A stretch of 64,000 nt of DNA from Ectothiorhodospiraceae bacterium BW-2 (GTDB lineage Bacteria > Pseudomonadota > Gammaproteobacteria > Thiohalomonadales > Thiohalomonadaceae). A program made the translations under genes and the position numbers. Every line of letters starts with the position of its first letter. The first letter of the stretch is position 1. The notes under the pieces are model-generated. The model made no database searches and was not told the DNA's origin. It was given only the letters and a program-made list of their open reading frames with translations. The stretch lies in the NCBI GenBank assembly GCA_008375315.1, contig CP032507.1:1849001-1913000 (forward strand). The letters run 5' to 3'. Shown here one piece after another: positions 5,425-54,732 of the stretch.

Positions 5425-8244
5425 ATGCAGGCAGCAGTTACAATTCAGGCAGAATCGGGTCTGTCAGCGGGGGGCAGTCGAGCTGCCAATGGAGTCACTT
5501 TCGGGAAAACCGAGGGGCAGCCACTGCTGTTTGCCTCGGAGTTCAGCCGTCAATTACAGCAGCAGAGCGGTGTTGCGGTTCAGACCATGGCACCGGCAGG
5601 AGAGGGGGGGGAGCTTATCGCGTCTGAGGCTAGCACCAAGACAGTCGCGCAAGGTACCGCTGTCGCGACCACCGTGACTACCGAGAGCACAGAGAAGCAG
5701 ACGGTAGGGCAACTGAAGAGCGATAGCAAGAGCGAAGAGGGGATCTCTTTGGCCGCCAAAGATAGCGTAAAAGGGACTGTCGAAGGGGCAGTCAATGGCT
5801 CAACAAAAGACTCAACAAAAGGCCCAATAACTGAGGCGGTTAGTGGTCAATCTAAGCTAGGTACCGTGTTGACTGACCAACAACTAACCGTTAACCGTCC
5901 CGGTGAGCTCTCGCTATCGATATTGCGTAGTGCTAGGCAGTCGATACACTCTAAGGCTAGCGGTGACTCCGTAGCTGAAACTGCCCTAACCCCGCTCAAT
6001 AGAGGGCAGTCGCAACTGCCACAGAGCGACTCAGTCACAACCACGGCTCAAGCCACCTCTGTAGGTAGCGAGAGTGGTGACGGTGGCAAAAGTGGCGAGA
6101 GCAGCCGAAGCAATGCCACCGTAGCGACAGTCAAAACGGCCCTAACCGCAGAAACTGAGTCGCAACAACCGCAAACAGCAGCCACTGAAGTGAAAGCGGA
6201 GCGCGTCCCGACCTCCCCCTCCCCCTCAAAGACCGAGCCAGAGCGAGCCCAAACAGCAGCCACTGAAGTGAAAGCAGAGCGCGTCCCGACCTCCCGCTCC
6301 ACCTCAACGACCGAGCCAGAGCGAGCCCAAACAGCAGCCACTGAAGTGAAAGCGGAGCGCGTCCCGACCTCCCCCTCCCCCTCAACGACCGAGCCAGAGC
6401 GAGCCCAAACAGCAGCCACTGAAGTGAAAGCGGAGCGCGTCCCCATCTCCCCCTCCCCCTCAAAGACCGAGCCAGAGCGAGCCCAAACAGCAGCCACTGA
6501 AGTGAAAGCGGAGCGCGTCCCCATCTCCCCCTCCACCTCAACGACCAAGCCAGAACGAGCCCAAACAGCAGCCACTGAAGTGAAAGCGGAGCGCGTCCCC
6601 ATCTCCCCCTCCCCCTCAACGACCGAGCCAGAGCGAGCCCAAACAGCAGCCACTGAAGTGAAAGCAGAGCGCGTCCCGACCTCCCCCTCCCCCTCAACGA
6701 CCGAGCCAGAGCGAGCCCAAACAGCGGCTCAAGTCAAAACCGCCGTCACTGACGAACAGCCAGTGCAACCAGTGCCAATTGCGGTCAACGAATCCGAATC
6801 GCAATCCGAACCAGCGCAGTCAGATAACAGACCCAGACCAAGCGAACCTAATGGCGAAGCTATGATGACGACACAGCAGAGAGCTCAGCAGCGTGCCGAT
6901 GTAGTCACCCAAACAGAGAGTATCGCCCCGACCGCCGCCGATAAAGATACATATACATATAAAGATAACGATAATGCGACCGTGGCAACTTTGACTCAAA
7001 GAGAGCCAGTCACCCCCGCCGCTATTAACACCAACGCCAACGCCAACGCCAACGCCAACACTATCGATACCAATAGCAGCGTTACCAGTGAACAGTCAGC
7101 TAGAGAGCAGAGTGTGGCTATGACTACCGACAGCGATGATAGCAACCATGAACTAGAAGAGCTAAATCACGCCCCCGAGAGCGCAGTGACGCTAGCCAAC
7201 AGTAGCGAACTAGCGCAGCAAGCGTCGCTAGAGCCGACTGAGAGAGCATCGGAACCGACTGCCAATACTACCAATACCACTAATGCTACCAATGTGACTA
7301 ATGTCACCAGTGCCAATGCTGATCATAACGCCGAACAGATTAGCCGCGATACCGAGCTTGAACCACAACCCGAAGGCACCGCAGTTGCCCCCCCAGTACA
7401 ACCGACCGTAGCTGTCGAAAATCGTAGCAGCGGTTCGACCGCCTCAGTGCTCTCTGAAGCGCGAGAGGCGATGAATCGTGGTGAGAGTGGCGCTACCCGC
7501 AGTCAAGGTGATAGCGCCGGCGAGGGGCGTCAGGGGCGGCAGCAGAGTGAGGAGATGCCACAGCAGCGCCAATCACTACGGGAGTTTATTCGCATGGCAC
7601 GCGAGGGCGAACTGCCGCCTGAGCGGATAGTCTCAGCCACGACTCCCCCCCGTAATGGCGCAGCAACCTTCGCCCAACTCTCTGCCACGGTAGCTGAGAC
7701 CCTCGCTACCCAGAACCAACTGAACCCGAGCGCCTCTTCAGCGTCACACGCACCACATAGCCTCCTAAGCGGATTGACTCAGACCGGTGCCCCGGCACAG
7801 CTAGCGAGTTTTACCGTTCCAGTACCACTGAGAAACGCTAACTGGGATCGAGCTATGGGCGAGCGGGTGACCTGGATGGCCAAAAATAATCTGCAACAGG
7901 CGAAACTAGAGCTCAATCCGAAACAGTTAGGGCCGGTTGAGATTAAGTTGAGCGTCAATCAAGACCAGCAGGTGAGTGTTAGCTTTGTAGCCAATAACCA
8001 GAGCGCTCGTGAAGCGATTGAACAGGCGATGCCACGACTACGGGAGATGTTAGAGCAGTCGGGGATGAGCTTAGGTGACACCGATGTCTCCACCCGTCAG
8101 CAGCAGCAGCAGGCGGAGGGCAATCGACAGCAAGGGGGTGGCAGAGCCGGCCTTGGAGGCGATATGGCTCTGGAGGGGGAGGAGTCGCTGTTAGCCTCGC
8201 AGCAGGCGACTGTGGCACCATCGGGGCTCGATCTTTTTGCATAA
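5425..8244 (+). CDS. fliK: Flagellar hook-length control protein FliK, enlarged with tandem repeats
   Basis: 939 aa, about twice the length of enterobacterial FliK (about 400 aa). FliK is the secreted ruler that terminates hook growth and switches export specificity. The C-terminal Flg_hook domain is clear at about residues 795-895 (WMAKNNLQQAKLELNPKQLG, then VEIKLSVNQDQQVSVSF), followed by a Gln-rich tail. The long central part is low complexity, Thr/Ser/Ala/Glu-rich, with seven 26-residue repeats (6172-6717), a short NANANANAN run near 7034-7057 and Thr-Asn repeats near 7261-7320. Because FliK measures length by its extended middle, repeat number could affect hook length (inference). Confidence 0.93.
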   Translation: MQAAVTIQAESGLSAGGSRAANGVTFGKTEGQPLLFASEFSRQLQQQSGVAVQTMAPAGEGGELIASEASTKTVAQGTAVATTVTTESTEKQTVGQLKSDSKSEEGISLAAKDSVKGTVEGAVNGSTKDSTKGPITEAVSGQSKLGTVLTDQQLTVNRPGELSLSILRSARQSIHSKASGDSVAETALTPLNRGQSQLPQSDSVTTTAQATSVGSESGDGGKSGESSRSNATVATVKTALTAETESQQPQTAATEVKAERVPTSPSPSKTEPERAQTAATEVKAERVPTSRSTSTTEPERAQTAATEVKAERVPTSPSPSTTEPERAQTAATEVKAERVPISPSPSKTEPERAQTAATEVKAERVPISPSTSTTKPERAQTAATEVKAERVPISPSPSTTEPERAQTAATEVKAERVPTSPSPSTTEPERAQTAAQVKTAVTDEQPVQPVPIAVNESESQSEPAQSDNRPRPSEPNGEAMMTTQQRAQQRADVVTQTESIAPTAADKDTYTYKDNDNATVATLTQREPVTPAAINTNANANANANTIDTNSSVTSEQSAREQSVAMTTDSDDSNHELEELNHAPESAVTLANSSELAQQASLEPTERASEPTANTTNTTNATNVTNVTSANADHNAEQISRDTELEPQPEGTAVAPPVQPTVAVENRSSGSTASVLSEAREAMNRGESGATRSQGDSAGEGRQGRQQSEEMPQQRQSLREFIRMAREGELPPERIVSATTPPRNGAATFAQLSATVAETLATQNQLNPSASSASHAPHSLLSGLTQTGAPAQLASFTVPVPLRNANWDRAMGERVTWMAKNNLQQAKLELNPKQLGPVEIKLSVNQDQQVSVSFVANNQSAREAIEQAMPRLREMLEQSGMSLGDTDVSTRQQQQQAEGNRQQGGGRAGLGGDMALEGEESLLASQQATVAPSGLDLFA
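6172..6717 (+). repeat. Seven in-frame 78-bp tandem repeats inside fliK
   Basis: Seven head-to-tail units of exactly 78 bp (26 codons) fill 546 bp, followed by a degenerate start of an eighth (QTAAQVK). The unit begins QTAATEVKAERVP and ends TEPERA; variable positions are T/I after the VP and a Ser/Pro/Arg-rich patch with K or T. Repeats differ by only a few bases each, which suggests recent expansion or homogenisation. Being a multiple of three, copy-number change keeps the frame. Confidence 0.97.
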
Positions 8245-30611: not shown

Positions 30612-32339
30612 GTGCAGCTAATTAACGAAATACGCTTTGATAACCTTCGTGGCGATCTCTTTGGCGGAGTTACCGCCGCCATTATCGCGCTGCCGATGGC
30701 GCTCGCCTTCGGGGTCGCTTCGGGAGCGGGTCCTGCGGCCGGTCTCTATGGGGCGGTGTTGGTGGGACTCTTTGCGGCTCTGTTCGGTAGTACGCCGACG
30801 CTCATCTCTGAACCGACTGGGCCGATGACGGTGGTGATGACCGCTGTGATCGCCAGCCTGATGGCGGCTAATCCCGATAATGGCATGGCGATGGCTTTTA
30901 CGGTGGTGATGTTGGCGGGGCTGTTTCAGATGCTGTTCGGGGTGTTGCGGCTCGGGCGCTATGTCACCATGATGCCCTATACGGTTGTCTCCGGCTTTAT
31001 GACTGGGATCGGGATTATCTTGATTATTTTACAGTTAGGGCCACTTCTCGGACAGGCACCGCCGCCCGGCGGCGTGGTGGGGAGTGTGACCTCGCTGCCG
31101 GAGCTAATAGCGGCCATTAAGCCGGCCGAAACTCTACTGGCTGTGATGACCTTTGCACTGATTCTGTTCTTTCCTAACGCTTGGCGCCGCTATCTGCCAC
31201 CGCAGCTCGTCGCCTTGGTGGCGGGGACTTTCATTGCGGTCTGGTTCCTTTCTGAGAGCGATATTCGTCAAATTGGCCCGATTCCGATGGGCTTACCGCA
31301 GCTACAGCTACCCCACTTTACTGCCGCACAGTGGCAGGCGATGGTGATGGATGGGGTGGTGTTGGCGGTGCTAGGGAGTATCGATGCGCTGTTAACTTCG
31401 GTGATTGCTGAAAATTTAACCCGCAAGCAGTGTAGCTCCGATAAGGAGCTCATTGGCCAAGGGATAGGTAATCTCGCCTCTGGCCTCTTCGGTGGGATTC
31501 CGGGGGCGGGGGCGACGATGGGCACGGTAGTCAATATTCAGACCGGTGCGAAGACAGCGCTGTCGGGGGTGACTCGGGCGCTACTGCTGCTGGTGGTCGT
31601 GTTGTGGGCCGCCGACTTAACCGCTCATATCCCGCTGGCGGTGTTAGCCGGAATTGCGATTAAGGTCGGTATCGATATTATCGACTGGTCGTTTTTGAGG
31701 CGAGCTCACCGAGTATCGACTAAAGCGGCGGTTATTATGTATGGGGTGATTCTGTTAACGGTATTTGTTGATCTGATCACGGCGGTAGTGATTGGAGTCT
31801 TTATCGCTAATCTGTTGACGATTGAGCGGATGGCGAAGATTCAGAGTCGTTCACTGGAGGCGATTCAACATGCTGATGGTTCAGGCAGCATGAGTCAGGA
31901 TGAGCAGATGTTAATGGAGCGGGCTCAGGGCAAGATTTTGGTCTTTGTGCTTGGAGGGGCGCTCATCTTTGGCGTGGCCAAGGCGATTTCGAGAAAACGG
32001 GCGGTACTGGCCGATCACCAAGTGCTAGTGCTAGACTTCACTCAGGTGCCGATGTTGGGGGTCTCCTCATCCCTAGCGATAGAGCAGATGATCTTGGAAG
32101 ATAGGGCCAACAATAAGCCGGTCTATCTTGTCGGTATGCAGCAGAGCATTCATAAAAGATTGGCCAATATGGGTGTGTTGCAACAGGTGGGGGAGGAGAA
32201 TATTCTTCAAACTCGGCAGGAGGCGCTAGAGCGTGCTAATCGTTACCTTGATCAGAAACAGCTTGAGGATGCCGAAGTGGCGGTGGCGATAGTGGCTAAA
32301 AGTGGTCGTAGTGATATTCGGCTCTTTGGAGGGCGTTAG
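30612..32339 (+). CDS. bicA: SulP-family bicarbonate transporter, BicA type
   Basis: 575 aa. The protein aligns in memory along its length with cyanobacterial BicA, a Na+-dependent HCO3- importer: near-identical stretches include ALPMALAFGVASGAG, TPTLISEPTGPMTVVMTAVI, YVTMMPYTVVSGFMTGIGI and GGIPGAGATMGTVVNIQ. There are about 12-14 membrane segments and a C-terminal STAS domain (about 435-545). GTG start. It is followed by a carboxysome shell gene, which supports bicarbonate rather than sulfate as substrate. Transport substrate remains inferred. Confidence 0.88.
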   Translation: MQLINEIRFDNLRGDLFGGVTAAIIALPMALAFGVASGAGPAAGLYGAVLVGLFAALFGSTPTLISEPTGPMTVVMTAVIASLMAANPDNGMAMAFTVVMLAGLFQMLFGVLRLGRYVTMMPYTVVSGFMTGIGIILIILQLGPLLGQAPPPGGVVGSVTSLPELIAAIKPAETLLAVMTFALILFFPNAWRRYLPPQLVALVAGTFIAVWFLSESDIRQIGPIPMGLPQLQLPHFTAAQWQAMVMDGVVLAVLGSIDALLTSVIAENLTRKQCSSDKELIGQGIGNLASGLFGGIPGAGATMGTVVNIQTGAKTALSGVTRALLLLVVVLWAADLTAHIPLAVLAGIAIKVGIDIIDWSFLRRAHRVSTKAAVIMYGVILLTVFVDLITAVVIGVFIANLLTIERMAKIQSRSLEAIQHADGSGSMSQDEQMLMERAQGKILVFVLGGALIFGVAKAISRKRAVLADHQVLVLDFTQVPMLGVSSSLAIEQMILEDRANNKPVYLVGMQQSIHKRLANMGVLQQVGEENILQTRQEALERANRYLDQKQLEDAEVAVAIVAKSGRSDIRLFGGR

Positions 32340-32420
32340 CGGGGAGCCATTAACAGCCTTGTTGAGCGCTATGGTTATCGTGGCGCTGTTGTTCTAATAG
32401 ATGGATTAAGATAAAACGGT

Positions 32421-33035
32421 ATGATTAGTTTGCGAACTTATGTCTATATTGATGCGTTGCAGCCGCAGTTAGCGGCCTATATCGCGACTGCCTCGCAGGG
32501 GTTTTTACCGGTACCGGGCGATGCCTGCCTCTGGGTTGAGGTCTCCCCGGGGATGGCAGTCCACCGCCTAACCGACAGGGCGCTCAAGGCGACTCGGGTC
32601 CATTTAGCGCAGCAGGTGGTTGAACGGGCCTATGGGTCGATGGTGATTCACCAACGGGATCAGAGCGATGTGATTGAGGCCGGTCGGGCTATTTTAGCCA
32701 CCATGGGGGCGAAACAGAGCGATAGGCAGCAGTGCAAAATCGCTTGGCAAGAGACTATTCGCGGCATGAGCCCCGATCATACGGTACTCATTAATCGTCA
32801 AGATCGGCGCGGTAATATGATTTTGCCGGGTCAAAGTATGTTTATTCTTGAGACTGAGCCGGCGGGCTATATCGTCTATGCGGCCAATCAGGCGGAGAAG
32901 GCGGCCGATATTTCGTTAATTGATGTACGGGCGGTCGGGGCTTATGGACGATTGATCCTCTCGGGGCGGGAGGGGGCGATCGACGAGGCGGCACAGGCGG
33001 CCATTACGGCGGTTAATAATCCCTCTGGAACTTAA
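32421..33035 (+). CDS. csoS1D: Carboxysome shell protein CsoS1D (tandem BMC trimer)
   Basis: 204 aa with two fused BMC domains. Close to Prochlorococcus CsoS1[50 protein letters not shown], and [18 protein letters not shown] in the second half. The VVERAYGS segment probably carries the Glu-Arg pair that gates the large central pore. It lacks the roughly 50-residue N-terminal extension of the cyanobacterial form. It forms stacked trimers with an openable pore in alpha-carboxysome shells. It sits away from the main cso operon, between bicA and a Nudix gene. Confidence 0.92.
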
Positions 33036-33039
33036 ATAG

Positions 33040-33612
33040 ATGCACCGACTGCAACTGTTAACGCTGTTAAGTCACTACACGACCCGCTTTATGGATGAGG
33101 CGGCCTTTGTCAAAAATACGCTCGACTTTGTCCAACAGCACGAAAACTGCTTTGACAGAGAGCTACAGATAGGCCATGTGACCGGTTCAGCTTGGGTTGT
33201 CAGTCGTGATCGGCAGCAGGTACTGCTGCTGCACCATAAAAAGCTGGATCAGTGGTTTCAACCCGGCGGCCACGCCGATGGTGAGGCTGATATCGTTCAT
33301 GTCGCCTTAAAGGAGACTGCCGAGGAGAGCGGCCTGCCTGAGGAGGCGATTCACTTGGTGAGCGACGCGCTGTTTGATGTCGATATCCATACGATTGCAG
33401 CTAATTTGCATGATAATCGCCATCTTCACTTCGATATTCGTTTTCTAGTCGAGGTCGATGAGAGGCTGCCGGTGCCTGGTAATGATGAGTCGCACCAAAT
33501 TCTATGGGTGCCGCTCTATCGGACACTACAATTTAACAATAACCGCTCCACCTATCGGATGCTAGAGAAGACTCGGCGACTGCAGCTACATCATTTTGCT
33601 CGGTCTATTTAG
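33040..33612 (+). CDS. Nudix hydrolase coupled to csoS1D
   Basis: 190 aa. One Nudix domain; the Nudix box lies around residues 76-100 (GGHADGEADI, then KETAEESGL) and is slightly off canonical spacing, with the first Glu one position early. A flanking HFDIRFLVEVDE fits the fold. Nudix enzymes hydrolyse nucleoside-diphosphate-linked compounds; the substrate is not predictable. It starts 4 bases after the csoS1D stop, so the two are probably co-translated, and it overlaps convergent cbbO by 8 bases. A housekeeping role in removing a sugar-phosphate or nucleotide by-product of carbon fixation is speculation. Confidence 0.85.
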   Translation: MHRLQLLTLLSHYTTRFMDEAAFVKNTLDFVQQHENCFDRELQIGHVTGSAWVVSRDRQQVLLLHHKKLDQWFQPGGHADGEADIVHVALKETAEESGLPEEAIHLVSDALFDVDIHTIAANLHDNRHLHFDIRFLVEVDERLPVPGNDESHQILWVPLYRTLQFNNNRSTYRMLEKTRRLQLHHFARSI

Positions 33613-35956
33613 TCAAACTGGCAAATAGGAGCGGCAGCTTCTCTGGTAGCCTATCGACATGGTCGATAATGGTGTAGTTGTTATCGCCAAAAATTCGTCT
33701 GACATAGTGATCTGCGTGTGGATCAAGGGTTAGACAGTAGGTGAGGATCCCGCTGCTATAGAGCTCTTCAACCGCCTTTTTGGTGTCGTGTCGCAGGTGT
33801 TGTGGATCTCGTTCATCGATATCGGCCGGCTCGCCATCGGTCACCAATAGGATTAGTTTGCGCTGCTCTGGCTGTTTGCTTAGGTGGTAGCCTGCGTGGC
33901 GCAGAGCGGCCCCCATGCGGGTTGATAGCCCCCCTCTCATTCCTGCGAGTCGCGATTTGACCTCGTCATCAAACTTTTGGCCGATATCTTTAAAACGGTA
34001 GTAGTGGACATCGTGGCGTCCATCGGAGGCGAAGCCGTGCAGGGCGAAAGGATCGCCAATCCCCTGAATGGCGATTGAGACTAAAGTGGCCGCCTCGCGG
34101 GTTAACTGTAGTACCGTCTTATCGGTACCGGCCATCGTCTCGTTGGTCGATTCGGAGAGATCCATCAGCACCACTACCGCTAAATCGCGGCTTTTGATCA
34201 CATTACGCATGGTGATACGGGGGCTCGGCTGCTCTCCCATCCGAATGGCAACCATGGCATCGACGGCGGCATTAATATCGATTTCGTCGCCATCTTCCAT
34301 ATTGCGCACCCGCTGTACCCCCTCTGGGGTGAGCAGATCGATAATCTGCTTAATGCGGTGGGCTATCGGCCGGTACTCCAGTAGAATTTGGTCGATATCT
34401 GCTGGGTTAGCACGCAGTGGGCGTCGCTCATAGAGGGTGACCCAGTCGGGGCGGGCGAGCTGTATCTGGTAGTCCCACTCCGGATAGTGGAATGGATCGG
34501 AGATTGGCTCTTTACCCCACATCTCATTAAAGCTTTTGGTGGTGGTGAGATCATCTTCGTAGGGGAACATCTCATCGGGACAGCTCCAGATCTCCTGCGC
34601 ATCATCACCGGCGAGTTCGCAATCGACCTCGTTGGCCATCTCCATAATCGTCATGACCCGCCGAACTTGGCGTTGGCTAGCGGGAAGATAGTGGTTACCA
34701 CTGCTTTGCCACATTAGCTCGTCAAACTCCCAGATATAGCGGTTATCGTCGCGATAGGGGATACGAATGCGCTCTAAAATTCTCAGGCTTGGTACCGCCT
34801 TGCGTTGACTGAAAATAGTAAATAGCTCCAGTCCCATCTGCCAAGAGAACCGATTATCATCCCGTTTTGTATCAATATTGGCATGAAAACGGGCCGCGAA
34901 GCGGTTGAGCTGCTCATCATCGCACTGCACTTCGCTATCGAGCAGCATAAGCGCCATAGACTCTAAGATTGGCATGGTTTCATGCTCTGCTCTCTCGGTC
35001 TGTGGTAGTCGTAGCAGCGTCTGCCACAGCTTTTTTAGACCGGGAAATTCGGTGGCGGCTCGATACTCAACGCGGGCATCCTCTAATAGACCGATAAAGA
35101 AGAGTTGGGCTGGGCTTAGCTGCTCTGCCGAGAGGGGGGAGGTGGTGTAGCAGAGATGCGAGGCCATGTGTGCCGCTGTGGCGCGATAGAGCTCTAGCCC
35201 TAAAATGGGGTTCTCGCTGCTACCGATATCATCTACGGCATCGGGTAGGTGCAGAATGTGGTGTTCAATGTAGGGCCTAAAGTCGGTATAGTCGGCCCCC
35301 GTTGGGCGCAGAAAGAAGTCCCGACCCCACAGTGCCCGTAGGTAGAAGTTGAGTTTGCGCTGAGTTTTGACGAACAGTACCCCGCGCCGCTCTCTTTGCA
35401 GTACGGCTTTAGAGTCGGCCGACTCTAGGTTAAAGTAGGCGGTCAGGTTGTTAAAGTCTCGTCGATAGGCTTGGGCGCCAAAATTGGCCCAGCGCCGCAG
35501 GCCGCTTAGGGTCAGTTTGGAGAGCAGCTCATCGATATGGTTTAGCATCGGCCGCACACCACGGGCGGCGGTGGAGGAGAGTTGATGCATCAGTGTGAGA
35601 TAGCCGCGCAGTAACTCGGCATCCCCTAAATGTCGTGCCGCTGAAGGGAGGCTGCTTAATAGTAGGGTAATGACCTCGCCTGAGACCATGGAGGAGAGTT
35701 TCATCGCCGCTGTTAGGCAGTCGTTGATAATATCCTCGCCACACTCCTTGACAACCAGTGGCATCTCTTGCAGGTAGGTAATGACCAGATCATTCCCTCG
35801 TCCTAGCTTGCATAGCGCTTTGGCTCCCTCCAGATAGTCTCGTAGTCCGGTGGGGGACATCAGTCGTGCCGCCTCATGGAAGGTACCCTCTAGCACCTCT
35901 CTTATCGCCGGTACACTATCAAGAAACTCTCGGTACTCTTCGAGCTGAATACTCAT
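33605..35956 (-). CDS. cbbO: RuBisCO activase adaptor CbbO
   Basis: 783 aa. A long helical N-terminal region is followed by a C-terminal von Willebrand factor A domain (about 575-775) whose MIDAS motif DLSES is intact (VVVLMDLSESTNE). CbbO bridges the CbbQ hexamer to inhibited RuBisCO so that tight-binding sugar phosphates are removed. It follows cbbQ by 46 bases. Related to NorD, but the RuBisCO context settles the call. Confidence 0.95.
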   Translation of the reverse strand: MSIQLEEYREFLDSVPAIREVLEGTFHEAARLMSPTGLRDYLEGAKALCKLGRGNDLVITYLQEMPLVVKECGEDIINDCLTAAMKLSSMVSGEVITLLLSSLPSAARHLGDAELLRGYLTLMHQLSSTAARGVRPMLNHIDELLSKLTLSGLRRWANFGAQAYRRDFNNLTAYFNLESADSKAVLQRERRGVLFVKTQRKLNFYLRALWGRDFFLRPTGADYTDFRPYIEHHILHLPDAVDDIGSSENPILGLELYRATAAHMASHLCYTTSPLSAEQLSPAQLFFIGLLEDARVEYRAATEFPGLKKLWQTLLRLPQTERAEHETMPILESMALMLLDSEVQCDDEQLNRFAARFHANIDTKRDDNRFSWQMGLELFTIFSQRKAVPSLRILERIRIPYRDDNRYIWEFDELMWQSSGNHYLPASQRQVRRVMTIMEMANEVDCELAGDDAQEIWSCPDEMFPYEDDLTTTKSFNEMWGKEPISDPFHYPEWDYQIQLARPDWVTLYERRPLRANPADIDQILLEYRPIAHRIKQIIDLLTPEGVQRVRNMEDGDEIDINAAVDAMVAIRMGEQPSPRITMRNVIKSRDLAVVVLMDLSESTNETMAGTDKTVLQLTREAATLVSIAIQGIGDPFALHGFASDGRHDVHYYRFKDIGQKFDDEVKSRLAGMRGGLSTRMGAALRHAGYHLSKQPEQRKLILLVTDGEPADIDERDPQHLRHDTKKAVEELYSSGILTYCLTLDPHADHYVRRIFGDNNYTIIDHVDRLPEKLPLLFASLTK

Positions 35957-36002: not shown

Positions 36003-36818
36003 CTAACCAAAAAATGTCTGTACCGCAGCCTTAAGGGTATCTCGCATATCGGGATCGTCAGTGAGTGGTGTCACCATCGTCATGCTACAGGCCGAGGCCG
36101 GTTCGATACCTTTGTGAATCAGTTGACCGGCATAGACTAGCAGCCGTGTCGAAATCCCCTCATCCAGACCGTGACCCTTCAGATTTCGGGCGCGATGGGC
36201 AATTTGTACCAGTTTGGCGGCCGTTGTGCTATCAACCCCCGACTCTTTTGCAACAATCGCTACCTCTTTCTCTTCACATGGGTAGTCAAAGTCGAGACCG
36301 CCAAAGCGCTGTTTGGTGGACTGCTTCAGATCTTTCATGAGACTCTGATAGCCAGGATTGTAAGAGATGACGAGCTGAAAATCGGGGTGGGCGACGACTA
36401 ACTCCCCCTTCTTATCTAATGGGAGGGTGCGGCGGTGATCGGTTAAGGGGTGGATCACCACGGTGGTATCTTGACGCGCCTCAACGATCTCATCGAGATA
36501 GCAGATAGCGCCGAGGCGAGCGGCGGTGGTGAGCGGGCCATCTTGCCATTTGGTGCCATCTTTATCGAGTAGAAAGCGACCGACCAGATCAGAGGCGGTC
36601 ATATCTTCGTTACAGGCAACGGTAATGAGTGGCCGCTGCAATTTCCAAGCCATATACTCTACAAAGCGTGACTTACCACATCCGGTAGGCCCTTTTAACA
36701 TCATTGGCATACGGACATTGTAGGCGGCCTCGTAGAGGGCGACCTCATCTGCGACCGACTCATAGTAGGGCTCAGTGTTGACTATATATTGCTGTGAGTC
36801 AATTGTGTGTTCCAACAT
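36003..36818 (-). CDS. cbbQ: RuBisCO activase AAA+ subunit CbbQ
   Basis: 271 aa MoxR-type AAA+ ATPase. Walker A GPTGCGKS at residues 43-50, Walker B AICYLDE with D109-E110, a sensor-1 region VISYNPGYQ, and the conserved C-terminal domain with [13 protein letters not shown]. It forms the hexameric motor that remodels inhibited RuBisCO with CbbO. Its target is likely the form IA enzyme encoded just upstream; whether it also serves the carboxysomal enzyme is open, as only one cbbQO pair is present in the window. Confidence 0.96.
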
Positions 36819-36849: not shown

Positions 36850-37158
36850 TCAATCGCTATAGGTCTCATATTCACCGCTCCACCCCTTCTCTCTGGCAAT
36901 TTTTACCGCTTCGGCGTGAATTTTTTTATGCCGCTGCTGTAGTTCAGGGGGAAGCAGGCTGACTAGGCAACCATATTTATCCCACTCTCTGTTGACTTTA
37001 TCTTGTAGGTTATTGATGCCACCTAGATTCCACCCCTCACAGGTCTCATCTTCGGATAGCAGGCCGAAGACCCAAGCATCACGAATGGTTTTACCAATGG
37101 CGGTCATCCCGCCAAACATATCACTGTGGATGCCGACATATCTATCCGATCTACTCAT
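36850..37158 (-). CDS. Small conserved protein between cbbLS and cbbQO, function unknown
   Basis: 102 aa, soluble, no signal peptide. It begins SRSDRYVGIHSDMFGGMTAIGKTIRDAWVFG and ends in a charged helical part with KIHAEAVKIAREKGWSGEYETYSD. I recall similar small proteins beside cbbQ in other chemolithoautotrophs, but no function is known to me. It has three hallmarks of a real gene: tight spacing to cbbQ (31 bases), codon use like its neighbours, and position within a dedicated operon. It lies after the cbbLS terminator, so it is probably transcribed at cbbQO level. A RuBisCO assembly or activation accessory role is inference. Confidence 0.75.
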   Translation of the reverse strand: MSRSDRYVGIHSDMFGGMTAIGKTIRDAWVFGLLSEDETCEGWNLGGINNLQDKVNREWDKYGCLVSLLPPELQQRHKKIHAEAVKIAREKGWSGEYETYSD

Positions 37159-37238
37159 GGTTACCTCTGCAATATAGATTAAAAAAGAGCAGTGAAATAG
37201 GTCACTGTTGTGGCTATTTTCCCAAAACGCAGTCGAAT

Positions 37239-37273
37239 AAAAAAGCCCCTGTCCGTATCAGTCGGGCAGGGGC
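37239..37273 (-). terminator. Rho-independent terminator/attenuator after cbbLS
   Basis: On the minus strand, an 11-bp stem with one G-T type mismatch (arms GCCCCTGCCCG and CGGACAGGGGC, 37273-37245, 7-base loop) is followed by six Ts (37244-37239). It lies 25 bases after the cbbS stop and before orf102, so it should end most cbbLS transcripts and let a minority read into orf102-cbbQ-cbbO. Confidence 0.88.
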
Positions 37274-37297
37274 CACTGTGGTCGCTACCCTCGCAGC

Positions 37298-37654
37298 TTA
37301 AACCGCAGTGCCGTGATAGACAACCATCGAGGCACCGGGGCACTGGGCAAAGTTATCTAAGCCAAGCAGGCGGACATGGTTATTCGGGTGCGCTTGATGG
37401 CACGCATCGCACTCGGCTAAAATGGTATCGACATTGGTTTCGCCAAACATCGGTAACTTCCACATATACCAGTAACTACCACGCGCATTCTCAGGCTCGG
37501 TATGTTCAATAGATGGGTTCCAGCCTTTAGAGACAATATACTCGATCTGGCTGCGGATACGGGCACTATCCATCGGCTCCAGATAGGAAAATGTCTCAAA
37601 TTTACGACTGCTGATATCGCTCAGGCTTGAGTTGTAGTCTTGCATCTCACTCAT
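37298..37654 (-). CDS. cbbS: RuBisCO small subunit, form IA (non-carboxysomal)
   Basis: 118 aa. Contains the small-subunit core [35 protein letters not shown] and [12 protein letters not shown]. It caps the L8S8 holoenzyme with the neighbouring CbbL. It differs clearly from the second CbbS at 52906, and the paralogues belong to different form IA branches. Separated from cbbL by 72 bases that contain a hairpin. Confidence 0.96.
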
Positions 37655-37726: not shown

Positions 37727-39145
37727 CTATTTGTGCGACACATCGAGCTTATCGACGGTGTCAAACTCGAATTTAATCTCTTTCCAAGTCTCCATGGCGG
37801 CACCGAGCTCAGGGCTATGCTTAGCCGCTGCGGTGAGAATCTCTTTGCCCTCTTTCTCCAGCACTCGACCTTGGTTACGCGCCTCAACACACGCCTCAAC
37901 TGCAACGCGATTGGCCGCAGCGCCCGCCGCGTTACCCCAAGGGTGTCCGAGGGTACCCCCACCGAACTGTAGTACCGAGTCATCCCCAAAGATGCTCACC
38001 AGTGCCGGCATGTGCCAGACATGGATGCCGCCAGAGGCGACCGGAATCACCCCAGGCATGGAGCCCCAATCTTGATCGAAGAAGATGCCACGGGAGCGAT
38101 CCTCTTTGATGAAGGAGTCACGCATAATATCGATCCAGCCTAAAGTGGCCTCACGATCACCTTCGAGTTTCCCGACAACGGTACCTGAGTGGAGATGGTC
38201 ACCGCCGGAGAGGCGCAGACACTTAGTCAGGACGCGAAAGTGGATCCCGTGGTGAGGGTTACGGTCGAGCACCGCATGCATGGCGCGGTGGATGTGGAGT
38301 AGCATACCGTTATCACGACACCAGCGAGCGAGCTGGGTGTTGGCCGCAAAGCCACTGGTTAAAAAGTCGTGCATAATGATGGGGGCACCAATCTCTTTAG
38401 CATACTCAGCCCGTTTCATCATCTCATCGGCTGTCGGCGCGGTCACATTCAGATAGTGGCCTTTGCGCTCGCCGGTCTCAGCTTCCGCCTTGACGATAGC
38501 CTCCATAACGAAGTCAAAGCGGTGCTTCCAGCGCATAAAGGGCTGAGAGTTGACATTTTCGTCATCTTTAGTGAAGTCGAGGCCACCGCGCAGCCCCTCA
38601 TAACAGGCGCGGCCATAGTTTTTAGCCGATAGACCGAGCTTGGGTTTAATCGTACAGCCGAGCATGGGGCGGCCATATTTGTTCATAATGTCGCGCTCAA
38701 CTTGAATCCCTTGGGGCGGGCCGTTGCAGCTCATGACATAGGCGACTGGGAAGCGGATATCCTCCAGACGCAGGGCTCGTAGCGCTTTAAAACCAAAGAC
38801 ATTACCCACCAGTGAGGTCAGGACATTAACCACCGAGCCCTCTTCAAACAGATCGATGGGGTAGGCGATAAAGGCGTAGAAGCAGGTATCATCTCCGGGG
38901 ACATCTTCGATGGCGTAGGCGCGGCCTTTATAGTAGTCAAGATCGGTTAACAGATCAGTCCAGACGGTTGTCCATGTTCCGGTAGAAGATTCAGCCGCAA
39001 CGGCTGCCGCCACCTCTTCCCGAGGGACACCGGGCTGAGGCGTCACTTTAAAACATGCCAAAATATCGGTATCGACGGGAGTGTACTCCGGCATCCAATA
39101 GGTTTCGCGGTACTCTTTGACACCGGCATCATACTTCTTAGCCAT
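37727..39145 (-). CDS. cbbL: RuBisCO large subunit, form IA linked to CbbQO
   Basis: 472 aa, full length. Active-site motifs intact: [22 protein letters not shown], the carbamylated Lys in [11 protein letters not shown], and [16 protein letters not shown]. It carboxylates ribulose-1,5-bisphosphate. The linked cbbQO place it in the form IAq type rather than the carboxysomal IAc type. AGGAGG precedes ATG 39145. Its divergence from the second CbbL shows most in residues 30-45 and 85-110. Confidence 0.97.
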
Positions 39146-39427: not shown

Positions 39428-40819
39428 TTAGTGCTGGGTTGAAGAGGGATCGTCATGGCCGTTATCGAGTTGGTAGCGCCTCATTTTGCGCCATAGGGAG
39501 ACTCTATCGATGCCGAGAATTTTGGCAGCTTGGGTGCGGTTATGGCCGACTCGCTGTAAGACTTCGGTAATATATTGCGCTTCTCGTTCGGCGAGGGTCG
39601 TTAAGGGGGGGAGGGGGGAGCGACGTAAGTGCGGTGAATTCTGCACCTCTGGCTGTAGGTGAGGGGGGAGTTCGGTGAAGCAGATCTCTCTCCCTCGGGC
39701 GAGAGCGACCGCCCGTTCGATAATATTCTCTAGTTCACGAATGTTGCCGGGGAAGGGGTAGTGGGTTAGGTAGTCGAGCACTTCTGGCGCTATTGTGTCG
39801 ATATTGCGCTCCATGCGCCGAGTATGTTTGCGTAAAAAGTGGAGCGCTAGCAGTGGGATATCGCCTTGGCGCTGTCGCAGTGGCGGCAGCGTTAGCTCTA
39901 CTACATTGAGACGATAGTAGAGATCTTGGCGAAATTCGCCGTTCGCGACCCTATGCGACATATTGCGATGGGTCGCCGATAAGATACGCACATCGACCGG
40001 TGTGACTGAGGTGGAGCCTAGTGGCTGTATCTCGTGCTCTTGCAGTACCCGCAGTAGCTTTACTTGCATCGATAGTGACATTTCACCAATCTCATCGAGG
40101 AGTAGGGTACTGCCGTTAGCCGCTTCAATCAGTCCGGTTTTGCGCTGTGCCGCGCCGGTAAATGCCCCTTTTTCGTGGCCGAAGAGTTCGTTCGCTAGCA
40201 GCTCCTCCTGTAGCGCACCGCAGTTAATCGCCATAAAGGGGCGGCGGTGGCGACCACTGTGGGCGTGAATATAGCGGGCTAGTAGCTCTTTACCGGTACC
40301 GCTCTCGCCACTAATGAGTACGCTGGTGGTGGCGGTGGCTAGCTGTCGTGCCATCTGTAGTAGCTGCTCCATGGTCGAATCTTGGGTGATAATGAGCGGG
40401 ATAGTGTGGCGTTTTTCGAGCTGCTGTTTCAGTTGCTGGTTCTCTTGTTTGAGATCGACAACATTGAGGGCGTTACGAATAATTTGTCTAACTTCATTCA
40501 GATGAAAGGGTTTGGCGATATAGTGAAATGCGCCCGCTTTCATCGCCGCTACCGCCGATTCGAGCGTGGCAAAGCCGGTAATCATAATGACTGCACTATC
40601 GGGTTGGTAGCGACCGCTTAGCTCTAGTAGTGTCATGCCATCAGTGTGATCGATATGCAGATCGGTAAGGATGAGATCGAATCTTTGCTGCTGGATGAGC
40701 TGTTTCGCCTCTGCGCCGCTAGTGGTGGTCGTGACCCGATACCCCTCTTTACGGCAGAGGTGGGCGAGATTGGTGACTGCGTTAGGTTCGTCATCGACAA
40801 TTAAGATCTCTCTACTCAT
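39428..40819 (-). CDS. NtrC-family sigma-54-dependent response regulator
   Basis: 463 aa: receiver domain with phospho-acceptor D53 (LILTDLHIDH), AAA+ domain with GESGTGKELLAR, the sigma-54-contacting GAFTGA loop (HEKGAFTGAAQRKTG) and a DEIGEM Walker B, then a Fis-type HTH (RTQAAKILGIDRVSLWRKM). It activates sigma-54 promoters on phosphorylation by the kinase encoded just upstream (8-base overlap). A consensus sigma-54 promoter lies divergently before the SLC13/nhaD operon, its likely target. Confidence 0.95.
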   Translation of the reverse strand: MSREILIVDDEPNAVTNLAHLCRKEGYRVTTTTSGAEAKQLIQQQRFDLILTDLHIDHTDGMTLLELSGRYQPDSAVIMITGFATLESAVAAMKAGAFHYIAKPFHLNEVRQIIRNALNVVDLKQENQQLKQQLEKRHTIPLIITQDSTMEQLLQMARQLATATTSVLISGESGTGKELLARYIHAHSGRHRRPFMAINCGALQEELLANELFGHEKGAFTGAAQRKTGLIEAANGSTLLLDEIGEMSLSMQVKLLRVLQEHEIQPLGSTSVTPVDVRILSATHRNMSHRVANGEFRQDLYYRLNVVELTLPPLRQRQGDIPLLALHFLRKHTRRMERNIDTIAPEVLDYLTHYPFPGNIRELENIIERAVALARGREICFTELPPHLQPEVQNSPHLRRSPLPPLTTLAEREAQYITEVLQRVGHNRTQAAKILGIDRVSLWRKMRRYQLDNGHDDPSSTQH

Positions 40820-41936
40820 TATCGAGTCGTCTCGGTGGGGGGAAGAGTAGCGTCACTGCGGTGCCGTGTCCTGGGGGGGAGTGGATGGCAATCATTCCGT
40901 CGTGCTCTTTAACTATCTCCTGCACAATCCAGAGTCCAAGCCCGCTCCCCTCTGAGGGGGGTTTGGTGGTGAAGAAGGGATCAAAGAGTTGTGGTTGGTG
41001 CTGGGGCGAGATCCCGCTGCCGTTATCGTTAACCACTATCTCGATAAAGGGGCCGCTATCGTCACTAGCTGAGGGGAGGTAACCGGCCATCGTGGCGTTG
41101 TTCGGTAGTAGCGGCCTGTCGCTGTAAGTGGCGCTAATGGAGAGGCGCTGGCTACCGGCCTGGCTTGCGTTTTGAATTAAGTTAATGAGTAGCTGTTGGA
41201 GTCGCTGTCTGTCGGCGCTTAGCTCTAGGTGTGGTGGAATATTGAGGACTAGCTCGGTACCTGTCCGTTGCAGTGTCTTGGTGATGAGTGGTCGTAGTCG
41301 CTCTATGAGCTGCTTTAGGTTTAAAGTTTGGCGCTGAAAGTGGCGCTGAGAGCCGAAGTCGAGCAGTGTCCGCACGATGTTGCGCCCCCGATCACTCTCA
41401 GCGGCAATTTGTGCTAACCATGTTTGTAGTTGCTCCGGTTCCGCTTCGGTCAGCTCCTCTTGCAGTAGCTGGTTGGCTATTGAGATGTTAGAGAGCGGGT
41501 TATTGAGTTCATGGGCGACACCTGCGGCGAGAACGCCGATGGAGGCGAGCTTCTCTGTCTGCATGATTAAGCGTTGGCGCTGCTCTAGCTCATGTATGAT
41601 GCGGTTAACGGCGCTGGTGAGTGTCGCTAGCTCCCGTAGGGCAGCCGCCTCTTTCAGGGGGGTGAAGTGGCCGTTGCTCATCTGTGTAAGCTGCTCTTCT
41701 AATTGATTGAATGGCCTAAAGAGCGTGGTATGCAGCGTTCTACCGATCCTGATGAGAATAACGAGGGTCAGTAGGGTTAGGCATACTCGCTGCGCTAAGT
41801 GGGGGAGCGAGGGTACCGCGAGCAGTAACAGTAGCACGATGAGTGTGAGCAGCATGAGGTAGCAGTGGCTGATCTCTCTTTGCACACTAGGAGGGTGGCG
41901 GGGGGAGGGCATAACAGAACGCAATAGGTGTTTCAT
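40812..41936 (-). CDS. Membrane sensor histidine kinase partner
   Basis: 374 aa. Two adjacent transmembrane segments (residues about 27-50 and 52-68) with almost no periplasmic loop, a HAMP-like linker, a HisKA domain with phospho-acceptor His in GVAHELNNPLSN, and HATPase motifs N (LINLIQNASQAG), G1 (VNDNGSGISP) and G2 (GSGLGLWIV). Lack of an extracytoplasmic sensor suggests it reads an intramembrane or cytoplasmic cue. Overlaps the response regulator gene. NtrB/ZraS-like in architecture; the signal is unknown. Confidence 0.92.
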   Translation of the reverse strand: MKHLLRSVMPSPRHPPSVQREISHCYLMLLTLIVLLLLLAVPSLPHLAQRVCLTLLTLVILIRIGRTLHTTLFRPFNQLEEQLTQMSNGHFTPLKEAAALRELATLTSAVNRIIHELEQRQRLIMQTEKLASIGVLAAGVAHELNNPLSNISIANQLLQEELTEAEPEQLQTWLAQIAAESDRGRNIVRTLLDFGSQRHFQRQTLNLKQLIERLRPLITKTLQRTGTELVLNIPPHLELSADRQRLQQLLINLIQNASQAGSQRLSISATYSDRPLLPNNATMAGYLPSASDDSGPFIEIVVNDNGSGISPQHQPQLFDPFFTTKPPSEGSGLGLWIVQEIVKEHDGMIAIHSPPGHGTAVTLLFPPPRRLDNE

Positions 41937-44147: not shown

Positions 44148-45572
44148 ATGTCAAAGTTATTGTTATCCCTTGCGTTACTGCTCCCTAGCTTGGTGTGGGG
44201 TGCTACCGGCGGGGAGCGGCTCGATCTGACGACTCACTGGGTGGGGTTTACCGCGCTCGCTATCTTTTTTATCGCCTACTTGCTAGTGATGGCGGAGGAG
44301 TTTACCCACCTGCGGAAGTCGAAGCCGGTGATTTTAGCCGCCGGTCTGATTTGGGGACTGATCGGCTGGATCTATGTGAGCTATGGTATTGAGCATGAAG
44401 CGGAGCTGGCGGTACGCCACAATCTGCTTGAGTATGCCGAGCTGATGCTGTTTCTGCTGGTGGCGATGACCTATATTAATACCCTAGAAGAGCGGCAGGT
44501 ATTTGATGCGCTACGAGCCTATCTGATTCGTAGTGGCTTCGGTTTTCGGGCGCTATTTTGGATTACCGGTATGCTCGCCTTTTTTATCTCACCTATCGCC
44601 GATAATTTGACCACCGCGCTGCTCATGTGCGCGGTAGTGATGGCAGTGGGGGGGGATAACGGTAAATTTATCCTCCTAGCGTGCATTAACATTGTGGTGG
44701 CGGCTAACGCAGGGGGAGCTTTCTCCCCCTTTGGCGATATCACCACGCTGATGGTGTGGCAGAAGGGGATGGTGGAGTTTTGGACCTTTTTTGCACTGTT
44801 TGTGCCGGCAGCGGTTAACTTTTTGGTGCCAGCTACGGTGATGCACTTTGCGGTGCCTGATGTCAAACCTCTAGCGACTAACGAAGTGGTGTCGATGCGG
44901 CGCGGTGCGAAGCGCATTTTGGTGCTCTTTTTGGCGACCATTGTGACCGCAGTCTCGTTTCATAACTTCCTCCACCTCCCCCCGGTGGTCGGGATGTTGA
45001 CGGGGCTGGCCTATCTGCAGCTATTTGGTTTTTATATGAAAAAGACGGCTCATCGCAGCCCCCACTCCGCTGCTGCTGCTGCTGATGATGATGATGAGGA
45101 GCGGCACAGCGGTGAAATGGGGAGCGTGATCGCGTTTGATGTCTTTAAACCGATCGCCAAAGCGGAGTGGGATACGCTGCTTTTCTTTTATGGTGTGGTG
45201 CTCTGTGTGGGGGGGTTAGGCTTTATTGGCTATCTAACTCTAAGCTCTGAGCTGATGTATAACGGCTGGGGGGCGACGCCGGCTAATATCACCATCGGCT
45301 TCCTTTCAGCCATTGTCGATAATATTCCGGTGATGTTTGCGGTGTTAACGATGAACCCCGAGATGTCAACCGGACAGTGGCTGCTCGTTACGCTGACGGC
45401 AGGCGTGGGCGGTTCAATGCTCTCTATCGGTTCGGCGGCCGGGGTGGCGCTGATGGGGCAGGCGCGGGGGAACTATACCTTTTTTGGCCATTTAAAGTGG
45501 ACTCCGGTGATCGCCTTGGGGTATCTGGCTAGTATCGTGGTTCACCTAGGGTTTAACGGTCACTACTTTTAG
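44148..45572 (+). CDS. nhaD: Na+/H+ antiporter, NhaD type
   Basis: 474 aa with about 12 membrane segments after a leader-like N-terminus (LLLPSLVWGA). NhaD family hallmarks are visible: ISPIADNLTTALLM, NAGGAFSPFGDITTLMVW and FLSAIVDNIPVMFAVLTMNPE. It exchanges Na+ (or Li+) for H+. A cytoplasmic loop near residue 305 carries an Ala-Asp run (AAAADDDDEE) encoded by GCT and GAT triplet repeats. It starts 18 bases after the SLC13 gene with its own AAGGA site. A sodium gradient from NhaD would suit Na+-dependent BicA (inference). Ends 20 bases into convergent cbbR. Confidence 0.9.
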   Translation: MSKLLLSLALLLPSLVWGATGGERLDLTTHWVGFTALAIFFIAYLLVMAEEFTHLRKSKPVILAAGLIWGLIGWIYVSYGIEHEAELAVRHNLLEYAELMLFLLVAMTYINTLEERQVFDALRAYLIRSGFGFRALFWITGMLAFFISPIADNLTTALLMCAVVMAVGGDNGKFILLACINIVVAANAGGAFSPFGDITTLMVWQKGMVEFWTFFALFVPAAVNFLVPATVMHFAVPDVKPLATNEVVSMRRGAKRILVLFLATIVTAVSFHNFLHLPPVVGMLTGLAYLQLFGFYMKKTAHRSPHSAAAAADDDDEERHSGEMGSVIAFDVFKPIAKAEWDTLLFFYGVVLCVGGLGFIGYLTLSSELMYNGWGATPANITIGFLSAIVDNIPVMFAVLTMNPEMSTGQWLLVTLTAGVGGSMLSIGSAAGVALMGQARGNYTFFGHLKWTPVIALGYLASIVVHLGFNGHYF

Positions 45573-46596
45573 TATTCACCGAGGGTTGTAGGTGATGGAG
45601 GTGGTGTGCTAGCTCCGGCCAGAGCTCCAGCAGGCGCTGATTCATGCGCGGCTGGATCTCCATGGCAAATGCCAAAAAGGTGCTGGCTACTAGCGATAGC
45701 TCTTTGCCTTTAGGATAGACTAAAAACCACTGGCGCATAATCGGAAAATCTTCTACATCGAGAAGGGCTAGCGGGCCGTTCGTGCCCTCTAGTGCCAAGG
45801 TGTGTAGTGAGAGAACCGATAGACCAAGGTGGCCGACAATCGCGTGCTTAATCGCCTCATTACTGCCTAGCTCCATGCGTACATTAGGCTGTAGCCCTCT
45901 ATTGGCAAAGGTTCTGATGGCGGCGTCGCGAATGCCGGAGCCTGGTTCGCGCATAATCATAGGCTCCATGACAATTCTCTCTAATGAGATATTTTTCTGC
46001 TTCACTAGGGGATGATCCCGAGGAGCCATCACCATCAGCGGATTGGCGGTAAAGGGGAACGACTCTACATCGAGTCTATCAAAGGGGACCTGCCCCATAA
46101 TGTAGAGATCATCTTCATTAGCGTTAATCCGTTCGATAATGCGATCTCGGTTAGAGACCTTGAGCGAGACATCGATGCCGGGGTGGCGCTGGCAGAACTC
46201 ACCGAGGACTTCAGGGGCGAAATATTTGGCGGTCGATATCACGCCTAGCCGCAATCTACCCCGTTTTAGACCTTTTAGATCGGCCACTTTCATCTCCAGA
46301 TTGGCCAGATTTTCAAAAATCTTACGACACGACTGGTAGAGCTCCATCCCAGCTTCGGTCGGGCGCACATTGCGGCCCACCTGTTCGAATAGCGCAATGC
46401 CGAGCGAGTCGGAGAGCTTTTTGACCTGCATCGAGACCGTCGGCTGGGTTAAAAAGAGCTCCTCCGCTGCACGGGTAAAGTTACCATGCCGGACAATCGC
46501 CTCAAAAATCTGGAGCTGGCGCAGAGTCGTATGGCGGATGAGATAGGTCGGCATCGCCGATGGGGGGGTATAGCCAGGTTCACTAAAAGGGGGCAT
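45553..46596 (-). CDS. cbbR: LysR-family RuBisCO operon regulator CbbR
   Basis: 347 aa. The N-terminal winged HTH reads FEAIVRHGNFTRAAEELFLTQPTVSMQVKKLSD, and the effector domain contains LRLGVISTAKYFAPEVLGEFC, close to known CbbR proteins that bind RuBP, PEP or ATP and activate cbb genes. It is the last gene of the carboxysome run, 33 bases after the mcdB-like gene. The in-frame ATG at 46554 (MPTYLIRHTTLRQL) may be the true start, as the first 14 residues lack family similarity. Confidence 0.92.
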   Translation of the reverse strand: MPPFSEPGYTPPSAMPTYLIRHTTLRQLQIFEAIVRHGNFTRAAEELFLTQPTVSMQVKKLSDSLGIALFEQVGRNVRPTEAGMELYQSCRKIFENLANLEMKVADLKGLKRGRLRLGVISTAKYFAPEVLGEFCQRHPGIDVSLKVSNRDRIIERINANEDDLYIMGQVPFDRLDVESFPFTANPLMVMAPRDHPLVKQKNISLERIVMEPMIMREPGSGIRDAAIRTFANRGLQPNVRMELGSNEAIKHAIVGHLGLSVLSLHTLALEGTNGPLALLDVEDFPIMRQWFLVYPKGKELSLVASTFLAFAMEIQPRMNQRLLELWPELAHHLHHLQPSVNTKSSDR

Positions 46597-53310: not shown

Positions 53311-54726
53311 TTAGGAGAGATCCAGCTTGTCAACCGTATCAAACTCGAACTTAATCTCTTTCCAAGTCTCCATAGCAATGGCGAGTTCAGGGCTGTGGCG
53401 TGCAGCTTCAGAGAGAATATCTCGTGCCTCTTTCTCGATTTCGCGCCCTTCGTTACGCGCCTTGATGCTCGCCTCTAGCGCGACACGGTTCGCCGCCGCC
53501 CCAGCTGCATTACCCCATGGATGCCCTTGAGTACCGCCGCCGAACTGTAGCATGGAGTCATCACCGAAGATGGTCACCAGCGCCGGCATGTGCCAGACAT
53601 GGATACCGCCTGAGGCGACAGCCATCACGCCGGGCAGTGAACCCCAATCTTGATCGAAGAAGACCCCGCGAGAGCGATCTTCGGGGACATACGATTCCCG
53701 TAGCTGATCGACAAAGCCGAGTGTCGATTGACGGTCGCCCTCAAGTTTACCGACGACGGTGCCGGTGTGGAGGTGGTCACCCCCAGAGAGGCGCAGACAC
53801 TTAGCGAGGACGCGAAAGTGGATACCATGCTTCGGATGGCGGTCGATAACGGCGTGCATCGCGCGGTGAATGTGGAGCAGCATACCGTTTTCACGGCACC
53901 AGTTAGCTAGACCGGTATTGGCGGTAAAACCGCCAGTCAAAAAGTCGTGCATAATGATAGGGGAGCCAACCTCTTTAGCAAACTCGGCCCGCTTATACAT
54001 CTCTTCAGGGGTTGAGGCGGTCACATTGAGGTAGTGCCCCTTGCGCTCGCCGGTCTCCTGCTGCGCCTTCTGAATCGCCTCGCCGACGAACTCAAACCGG
54101 TCGCGCCAGCGCATAAAGGGCTGCGAGTTGACATTCTCATCATCTTTGGTCATATCCAGACCGCCGCGCAGACACTCATAGACGGCACGGCCATAGTTTT
54201 TAGCCGAGAGACCGAGCTTAGGCTTAATGGTCGCGCCTAGCATTGGACGACCATATTTATTCAGACGGTCTCGTTCTAGCTGAATACCGGCAGGAGGGCC
54301 ACCGCAGGTCTTAATGTAGGCGATTGGGAAGCGAATATCTTCCAGCCGCAGATGGCGCAGCGCTTTAAAGCCAAAGACATTGCCGACGAGTGAGGTCAGC
54401 ACATTAACGACTGAGCCCTCTTCGAATAGATCGATAGGGTAGGCGATAAAGGCGTAGAAGGACTCTGAATCGCCCGGAACATCTTCGATACGATAGGCGC
54501 GGCCTTTGTAGTACTCCATATCGGTCAATAGTTCAGACCATACCGTACTCCAAGTACCGGTCGAAGACTCGGCAGCGACGGCGGCCGCGACCTCTTCGCG
54601 GGGAACGCCGGGCTGCCCGGTGCACTTAAAGCACGCGAGTAGATCGGTATCTAAGGGGACATAGTCCGGCGTCCAGTACATATCACGGTACTCTTTAACG
54701 CCTGCATCGTAAGTTTGTTTTGCCAT
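53311..54726 (-). CDS. cbbL: RuBisCO large subunit, carboxysomal form IA
   Basis: 471 aa. Active-site motifs [39 protein letters not shown] and [16 protein letters not shown] are intact. The sequence closely resembles carboxysomal CbbL of Halothiobacillus (for example [22 protein letters not shown] and [10 protein letters not shown]). It heads the cso operon. ATG 54726 is chosen because AGGAG lies 6 bases upstream; an in-frame TTG at 54732 is less likely. Confidence 0.97.
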
Positions 54727-54732
54727 GTTCAA

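Follow-up and report, generated by a model that had tools for sequence, protein, structure and literature searches.

The green-type RuBisCO of proteobacteria, form IA, drives CO2 fixation in chemoautotrophs and in alpha-carboxysome bacteria, and engineers move enzymes of this form into E. coli, yeast, and plants. RbcX is a small helical RuBisCO assembly chaperone of the rbcLXS operon, found with form IB, and Pfam models exist for RbcX, for Raf1, and for the pterin-dehydratase-like Raf2/acRAF. In the available portion of PMC4633670, acRAF is described as a pterin dehydratase-like factor of alpha-carboxysome loci. The CbbQ/CbbO activase combines a MoxR AAA+ protein with a VWA adaptor, and the activases of A. 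ferrooxidans function in vitro as CbbQ plus CbbO according to the accessible parts of PMC4660213 and PMC8718961, which counts against a need for the protein described below.

A gene between rbcS and cbbQ is mentioned in PMC6908604, where the text available reports that the Campylobacterota acquired an rbcL-rbcS-"conserved hypothetical protein"-cbbQ arrangement and that the same hypothetical gene occurs in Ca. Thioglobus; in that text it is a mention only, without family, distribution, or role. The A. ferrooxidans IAq operon is given as cbbL2-S2-Q2-O2 (PMC2942843), and A. vinosum has consecutive locus tags for rbcS and cbbQ (PMC11267869). No gene in this position is named in what was accessible of these two papers or of PMC8718961, PMC4660213, PMC4633670, PMC7714395, PMC3603346, PMC7895386, and PMC5437159. 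Our literature search, with most subscription journals outside it, found no characterization of the protein, which we refer to as X.

The Locus Between cbbS and cbbQ

All coordinates refer to the window, the whole stretch of 64,000 nucleotides that was analyzed; the genes of this paragraph, the cbbS-X spacer, and the second cbbL, response regulator, and histidine kinase described below lie on the minus strand. X (36850–37158) is an uncharacterized open reading frame with an ATG start encoding 102 aa, the protein beginning MSRSDRYVGIHSDMFGGM. It follows cbbL (37727–39145), encoding a form IAq large subunit with the C-terminus KLDVSHK, and cbbS (37298–37654), encoding the form IAq small subunit (RuBisCO_small, E = 3e-36). 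Downstream of X by 31 nt begins cbbQ (36003–36818), the AAA+ activase subunit (CbbQ_C, E = 2e-34), itself followed by cbbO (33605–35956), the VWA adaptor of the activase, identified by its VWA match. A C-terminal motif of the KLDVSHK kind in CbbL has been linked to CbbQO in the part of PMC8718961 available.

The 139-nt spacer between cbbS and X (37159–37297) contains a terminator-like hairpin at about 37235–37275, GCCCCTGCCCG...CGGACAGGGGC followed by T6, with a predicted energy of −19.9 kcal/mol. It was detected with a scan rule of our own, and in dinucleotide shuffles, a control applied to the window spacer only, an equally strong hairpin arose in 1/300 and some hairpin passing the rule in 62/300. 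A separate consensus terminator scan did not list this hairpin and listed a weaker site at 37207–37190; it returned two sites for the region, with 2.9 expected by chance. Across loci, a terminator-like hairpin lies between cbbS and X in 25 of 37 (window included) and between X and cbbQ in 1 of 35, and among 35 loci measured, all but one have an X-to-cbbQ spacer of between 0 and about 200 nt. Since the hairpin is common before X and rare behind it, X seems to be part of the activase unit and not of the cbbLS unit, in agreement with the preliminary description, which had placed the gene past a cbbLS terminator and together with the activase.

A second cbbL (53311–54732), encoding a carboxysomal form IAc large subunit with the C-terminus KLDLS that is 81% identical to the first, sits in what looks like an alpha-carboxysome locus. 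Directly upstream of the first cbbL lie an NtrC-like response regulator (39428–40819) and an adjoining histidine kinase (40812–41936), and not a LysR gene; a LysR-type open reading frame at 45553–46596 is cbbR-like in appearance. Running towards cbbO, positions 30612–33612 hold a transporter of the SulP family and a 204-aa protein with tandem BMC domains, both identified by profile, and a Nudix-looking frame. Elsewhere, at 6000–6700, repeats of about 24 residues (TEPERAQTAATEVKAERVPTSPSPS-like) lie within the open reading frame 5425–8244, beside which the frames look flagellar.

Sequence and Predicted Structure

X occurs once in its own 4.07-Mb genome. An alignment of 103 rows has invariant Y7, G9, W43, L69, A88, and W93, and AlphaFold2 predicts three helices, 20–31, 45–61, and 71–90, from 27 rows (pLDDT 84.6, pTM 0.73), with a nearly identical model from 103 rows (pLDDT 82.9, pTM 0.69).

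Profile searches with X against Pfam and NCBIfam gave zero matches at E ≤ 1, including any AAA+, CbbQ_C, or VWA domain that would make it a subunit like CbbQ or CbbO, and no match was found to the Pfam profiles of the chaperones RbcX, Raf1, and pterin-dehydratase-like Raf2/acRAF. When the 27 family members of alignment A1 were compared with Pfam, only scattered weak matches to other families appeared (best E 0.0089). A profile search of the PDB gave one chain at E 5e-5 (8fjg, "H12," 48 positions) and four others at E > 0.1; with the model, neither Foldseek (best E 5.3) nor VIA-align (one chain, Z 2.0, rmsd 7.5, 54 aligned) found a credible solved fold.

X appears to share the unit of CbbQ/CbbO downstream of the cbbLS hairpin, but has no AAA+ or VWA profile and is found where no IAq-type cbbO was detected. 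Like RbcX it is small, predicted to be helical, and encoded among RuBisCO genes, with a similar job proposed, whereas it occurs with form IA, and neither a Pfam match nor, in the Foldseek and VIA-align comparisons, a convincing structural one was found. Like acRAF, it is small and a putative accessory linked to form IA RuBisCO, but it lacks a pterin dehydratase profile and is not restricted to carboxysome loci.

Distribution and Gene Order

Matches to X were found in 24/56 genomes of the relatives set (its own genome counted), in 117/370 sampled genomes of the host's class, in 10/299 sampled genomes of the phylum, and in at least 547 stretches of GTDB contigs. The single copy in its own genome and the homologs in the relatives, the class sample, and GTDB indicate that the open reading frame is not due to chance; the preliminary reading of a real 102-aa gene between cbbLS and cbbQO is borne out. 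No X was found in viral contigs (pattern scan) or in phages.

Gene order was read in two sets. Among the best 80 of the at least 547 GTDB stretches, which represent the closest named relatives and are biased accordingly, 71 loci have the order cbbS-X-cbbQ and seven more are compatible with it but cut by contig ends; one of the other two has X-cbbQ behind cbbR and one is without any cbb gene. In the class sample, 120 stretches reaching at most about 9.5 kb to either side carry 121 copies of X (with the window, all 122 places), and 30 of them read cbbS-X, 10 cbbO-X, and two cbbQ-X-cbbO, in 15 some cbb or cso gene or a remnant of one lies in the vicinity, and the other 63 are devoid of such genes; many of these stretches end at contig edges, which limits the neighbor counts, and most of the sampled genomes seem to be MAGs. 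A cbbQ or cbbO or a remnant lies within reach of X in about 53/120 stretches, a count that includes the remnants in L122 and L114 (in L227 the contig ends before cbbQ), and about 67/120 are without, among them the 63 that have no cbb or cso gene. By this count homologs lie mostly away from cbbQO, a pattern that the preliminary description had named as one that would refute its proposal of a RuBisCO factor; the carriers, however, are RuBisCO-bearing (115/117), and 71/80 of the closest relatives read cbbS-X-cbbQ.

The tree of X mixes cbb-linked and distant copies with no clean split, and a separate family of cbb-distant copies was accordingly rejected. The label "away" changes at least 23 times on this tree, which was calculated from about 100 columns and has many unresolved forks, and as low a number was reached in 0/500 shuffles, so that the label is clustered. 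A candidate fusion of CbbQ with X (371-aa open frame, G093) was also rejected; the long open reading frame (L157, 329 aa) reads cbbQ out of frame.

Several arrangements are noted for themselves. At L074:8634-11277 the order is cbbR-X-cbbQ with no cbbLS between, and a run of Ns after cbbQ makes the arrangement uncertain. L122 (G380) has pieces of cbbR, cbbM, cbbQ, and cbbS followed by an intact X, and in L114 X precedes the last 48 aa of cbbO; both look like decayed operons. Two further unnamed families, neither with a Pfam match, occur near X and have no match in the window's genome. The first, u10 (about 127 aa; representative L133:7505-8020, its protein taken from an internal ATG), lies within 6 kb of X in 31/120 class stretches, often after cbbO or X. 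The second, u18 (about 151 aa; representative L204:6550-7005), is near X in 15/120, often directly adjoining, and stands beside X also without a nearby cbb gene (L204, L207).

Co-occurrence with RuBisCO

A RuBisCO_large match is present in 115/117 class genomes with X versus 83/253 without (Fisher p = 3e-38, uncorrected for phylogeny). The match reaches E ≤ 1e-90 in 112 of the 117, G380 having a fragment only (6e-8), and it is form-I-like by score in 107/117. Form-I-like here means RuBisCO_large at E ≤ 1e-129 in the class sample and 1e-130 in the family f190 discussed below, and cbbO means E < 1e-100; the subform was checked by sequence in 60 fetched RuBisCO loci and in the fetched stretches around X only. 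X accompanies a form-II-like match alone in G004 and, by score, in G226.

As relatedness could cause this overlap, genomes were compared within families, a test covering those genomes whose family was shown. X is associated with form-I-like RuBisCO (p = 0.005, 16 informative families), pooled counts being 26 with and 7 without it among X-bearing genomes and 7 with and 17 without among the X-less. The association with cbbO is about as strong (p = 0.010, 15 families), and for "any RuBisCO" only two families were informative (p = 0.63). With form I fixed, cbbO was no longer significant (p = 0.59), nor was form I among genomes lacking cbbO (p = 0.30), and partner and phylogeny are thus not cleanly separated.

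X is absent from 39/146 form-I-like class genomes, some of them with complete cbbLSQO, which argues that it is dispensable or replaceable and essential to neither enzyme. Two X-bearing genomes have no RuBisCO match: G331, listed as 100% complete in 120 contigs, has two copies, and G284 (93% complete) has X together with cbbO. Both match the PRK family, but so do E. coli and, at equal strength, the RuBisCO-less G254, and such an unspecific match is no proof of a Calvin cycle; G331 may be an X genome lacking that cycle. Its copy in L195 has no in-frame start codon and lies beside a frameshifted cbbO remnant, and the copy in L194 is intact.

X Apart from the Activase

A cbbO match was found in 94/117 X-bearing class genomes; some of the 23 without are split assemblies, as in G360, where cbbO stands at a contig edge. 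Among the 60 fetched RuBisCO loci, 12 X genomes have carboxysomal IAc RuBisCO and no IAq-type cbbO match (G061, G063, G083, G087, G089, G157, G187, G192, G205, G231, G247, and G372), three of which (G157, G205, and G231) also have a second RuBisCO match outside these loci, which in G157 is possibly the remnant in L139. Ten X-less genomes likewise have IAc without IAq-type cbbO, G079 and G352 among them having a cbbO-like match near 1e-90.

In L139 of G157, whose full-length fetched cbbL is IAc, an intact X (158 bits, median over all copies 153) is flanked on one side by a cbbL remnant that carries an internal stop and a deletion of about 50 residues (72% identity over 110) and on the other by a short, weak cbbQ-like remnant (E = 8e-4). 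L134, L146, and L163 read kinase-NtrC-X with no cbbLSQO between, the regulator directly upstream of X being 51–53% identical to the NtrC-like protein of the window. The IAc genomes, L139, and these three loci together indicate that X can persist without an IAq operon.

Occurrence in a Second Class and Apparent Horizontal Transfer

Family f190 belongs to another class, possibly the Zetaproteobacteria. Among its 37 RuBisCO-bearing genomes, with forms assigned by score, X is present in 7/7 with form I and in 0/27 with form II only (p = 2e-7), and in 0/3 of the remaining genomes, whose RuBisCO fragments are unclassifiable. Six of the seven loci read cbbS-X-cbbQ and one X follows cbbO, and in the tree of X these copies are spread over three or more parts; this scatter suggests repeated co-acquisition of X with form I RuBisCO, many of the forks being weak. 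In the other classes of the phylum sample outside f190, 20 genomes with RuBisCO_large at E < 1e-130 have no X and may be of form IC.

Among 72,556 plasmids, tblastn with X found a single carrier, plasmid 1 of Nitrobacter hamburgensis. About 14 kb from X this plasmid carries a form IA cbbL, whose product shares 82% identity with the IAc protein of the window. The plasmid copy of X adjoins a DUF2309, proton-transporter, and PII set, presumably the dab genes. The same search gave no X match on a Thiodictyon plasmid carrying an IAc cbbL (94%) or on three Cereibacter plasmids carrying a cbbL at 74%. In Ca. Thioglobus pontius (L095), X lies exactly between cbbS and cbbQ. Judged by position, the hypothetical gene that the available text of PMC6908604 reports from the rbcS-cbbQ interval of Ca. 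Thiobarba and of Ca. Thioglobus-like relatives is very probably X. X and its RuBisCO type seem to travel jointly between distantly related bacteria.

Discussion

X is probably an overlooked RuBisCO helper, as suggested by its near restriction to RuBisCO bacteria, its apparent co-transfer, and its persistence beside decayed neighbors. The link to RuBisCO is strong, and the link to the activase is weaker. The best-fitting partner is form IA RuBisCO: within f190 the presence of X tracks form I but not form II, copies occur alongside IAq as well as IAc, and an IAq-type cbbO is not needed; we consider it reasonably probable that X is an accessory of this enzyme in some capacity. More specifically, X may well be a small accessory dedicated to the form IA enzyme as such, produced along with the activase without being limited to it, although here the balance is close to even. 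The earlier suggestion is partly supported: its tie to RuBisCO is upheld by co-occurrence, apparent co-transfer, and synteny, a factor of the CbbQ/CbbO activase is not required by the data, and assembly or activation of RuBisCO is a candidate role.

Three other explanations have to be weighed against this. X could serve the CbbQO activase as an adaptor or as a regulator, bridging CbbQ/CbbO and RuBisCO or tuning the ATPase, as its place in the cbbQO unit behind the cbbLS hairpin, the short spacer to cbbQ in 34/35 loci, the copies after cbbO (10/120) or between cbbQ and cbbO (2/120), and the cbbO matches at E < 1e-100 in 94/117 X-bearing genomes would suggest. An adaptor of this kind is nevertheless unlikely given the presence of X with carboxysomal RuBisCO where no IAq-type cbbO matches, its intact state where cbbL and cbbQ are remnants, and, should they carry CbbQO, its absence from all 27 of the f190 genomes that have form II only.

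Its small size, conservation, and position outside the cbbLS unit, together with the copies directly behind an NtrC-type regulator and kinase in L134, L146, and L163, are consistent with an inhibitor or regulatory protein that switches form IA RuBisCO activity with CO2 or energy supply; a genome should be able to lose such a protein, but L139 has kept X intact next to genes in decay, and we regard this role as improbable. Nor does it seem likely that X serves some other process of sulfur- and iron-oxidizing autotrophs, such as inorganic carbon uptake, redox control, or carboxysome positioning, and is linked to RuBisCO through shared lifestyle. The 63/120 class stretches with no cbb or cso gene nearby, the DUF2309, proton-transporter, and PII neighbors on the Nitrobacter plasmid, the frequent pairing with u10 and u18, and the occurrence of X without a RuBisCO match in G331 would fit such a process, but the exact correspondence of X with form I rather than form II in f190 and the transfer together with rbcLS to the Campylobacterota, as far as PMC6908604 is available, speak against it.

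As an accessory of form IA RuBisCO, X would serve the free IAq enzyme as well as its carboxysomal counterpart, IAc. Encoded behind the cbbLS hairpin with cbbQ and cbbO, it would be made in sub-stoichiometric amounts relative to RuBisCO, and a helper needed in such amounts is what a small protein of predicted helices, with its gene outside the cbbLS unit, would suit. It would bind RuBisCO, acting on the large-subunit core to help it assemble or to keep it competent, and would work beside the activase and not as an obligatory part of it. Assembly or maintenance is the likeliest of the jobs considered, as a tentative assignment at less than even odds. X could also be the first of a new class of RuBisCO chaperones, with no sequence relationship to Raf1, RbcX, Raf2/acRAF, BSD2, or any activase; it would then be specific for form IA, travel between phyla with it, and be a missing helper for its functional transfer, which we consider less likely than not.

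Surveys built on family models miss a conserved helper for which Pfam and NCBIfam have none, an example being the Pfam- and EC-based survey of the Calvin cycle in PMC7895386, as described in its available part. Should form IA RuBisCO assemble better, or be more stable or more active, with X, then RuBisCO engineering would gain an untried part.
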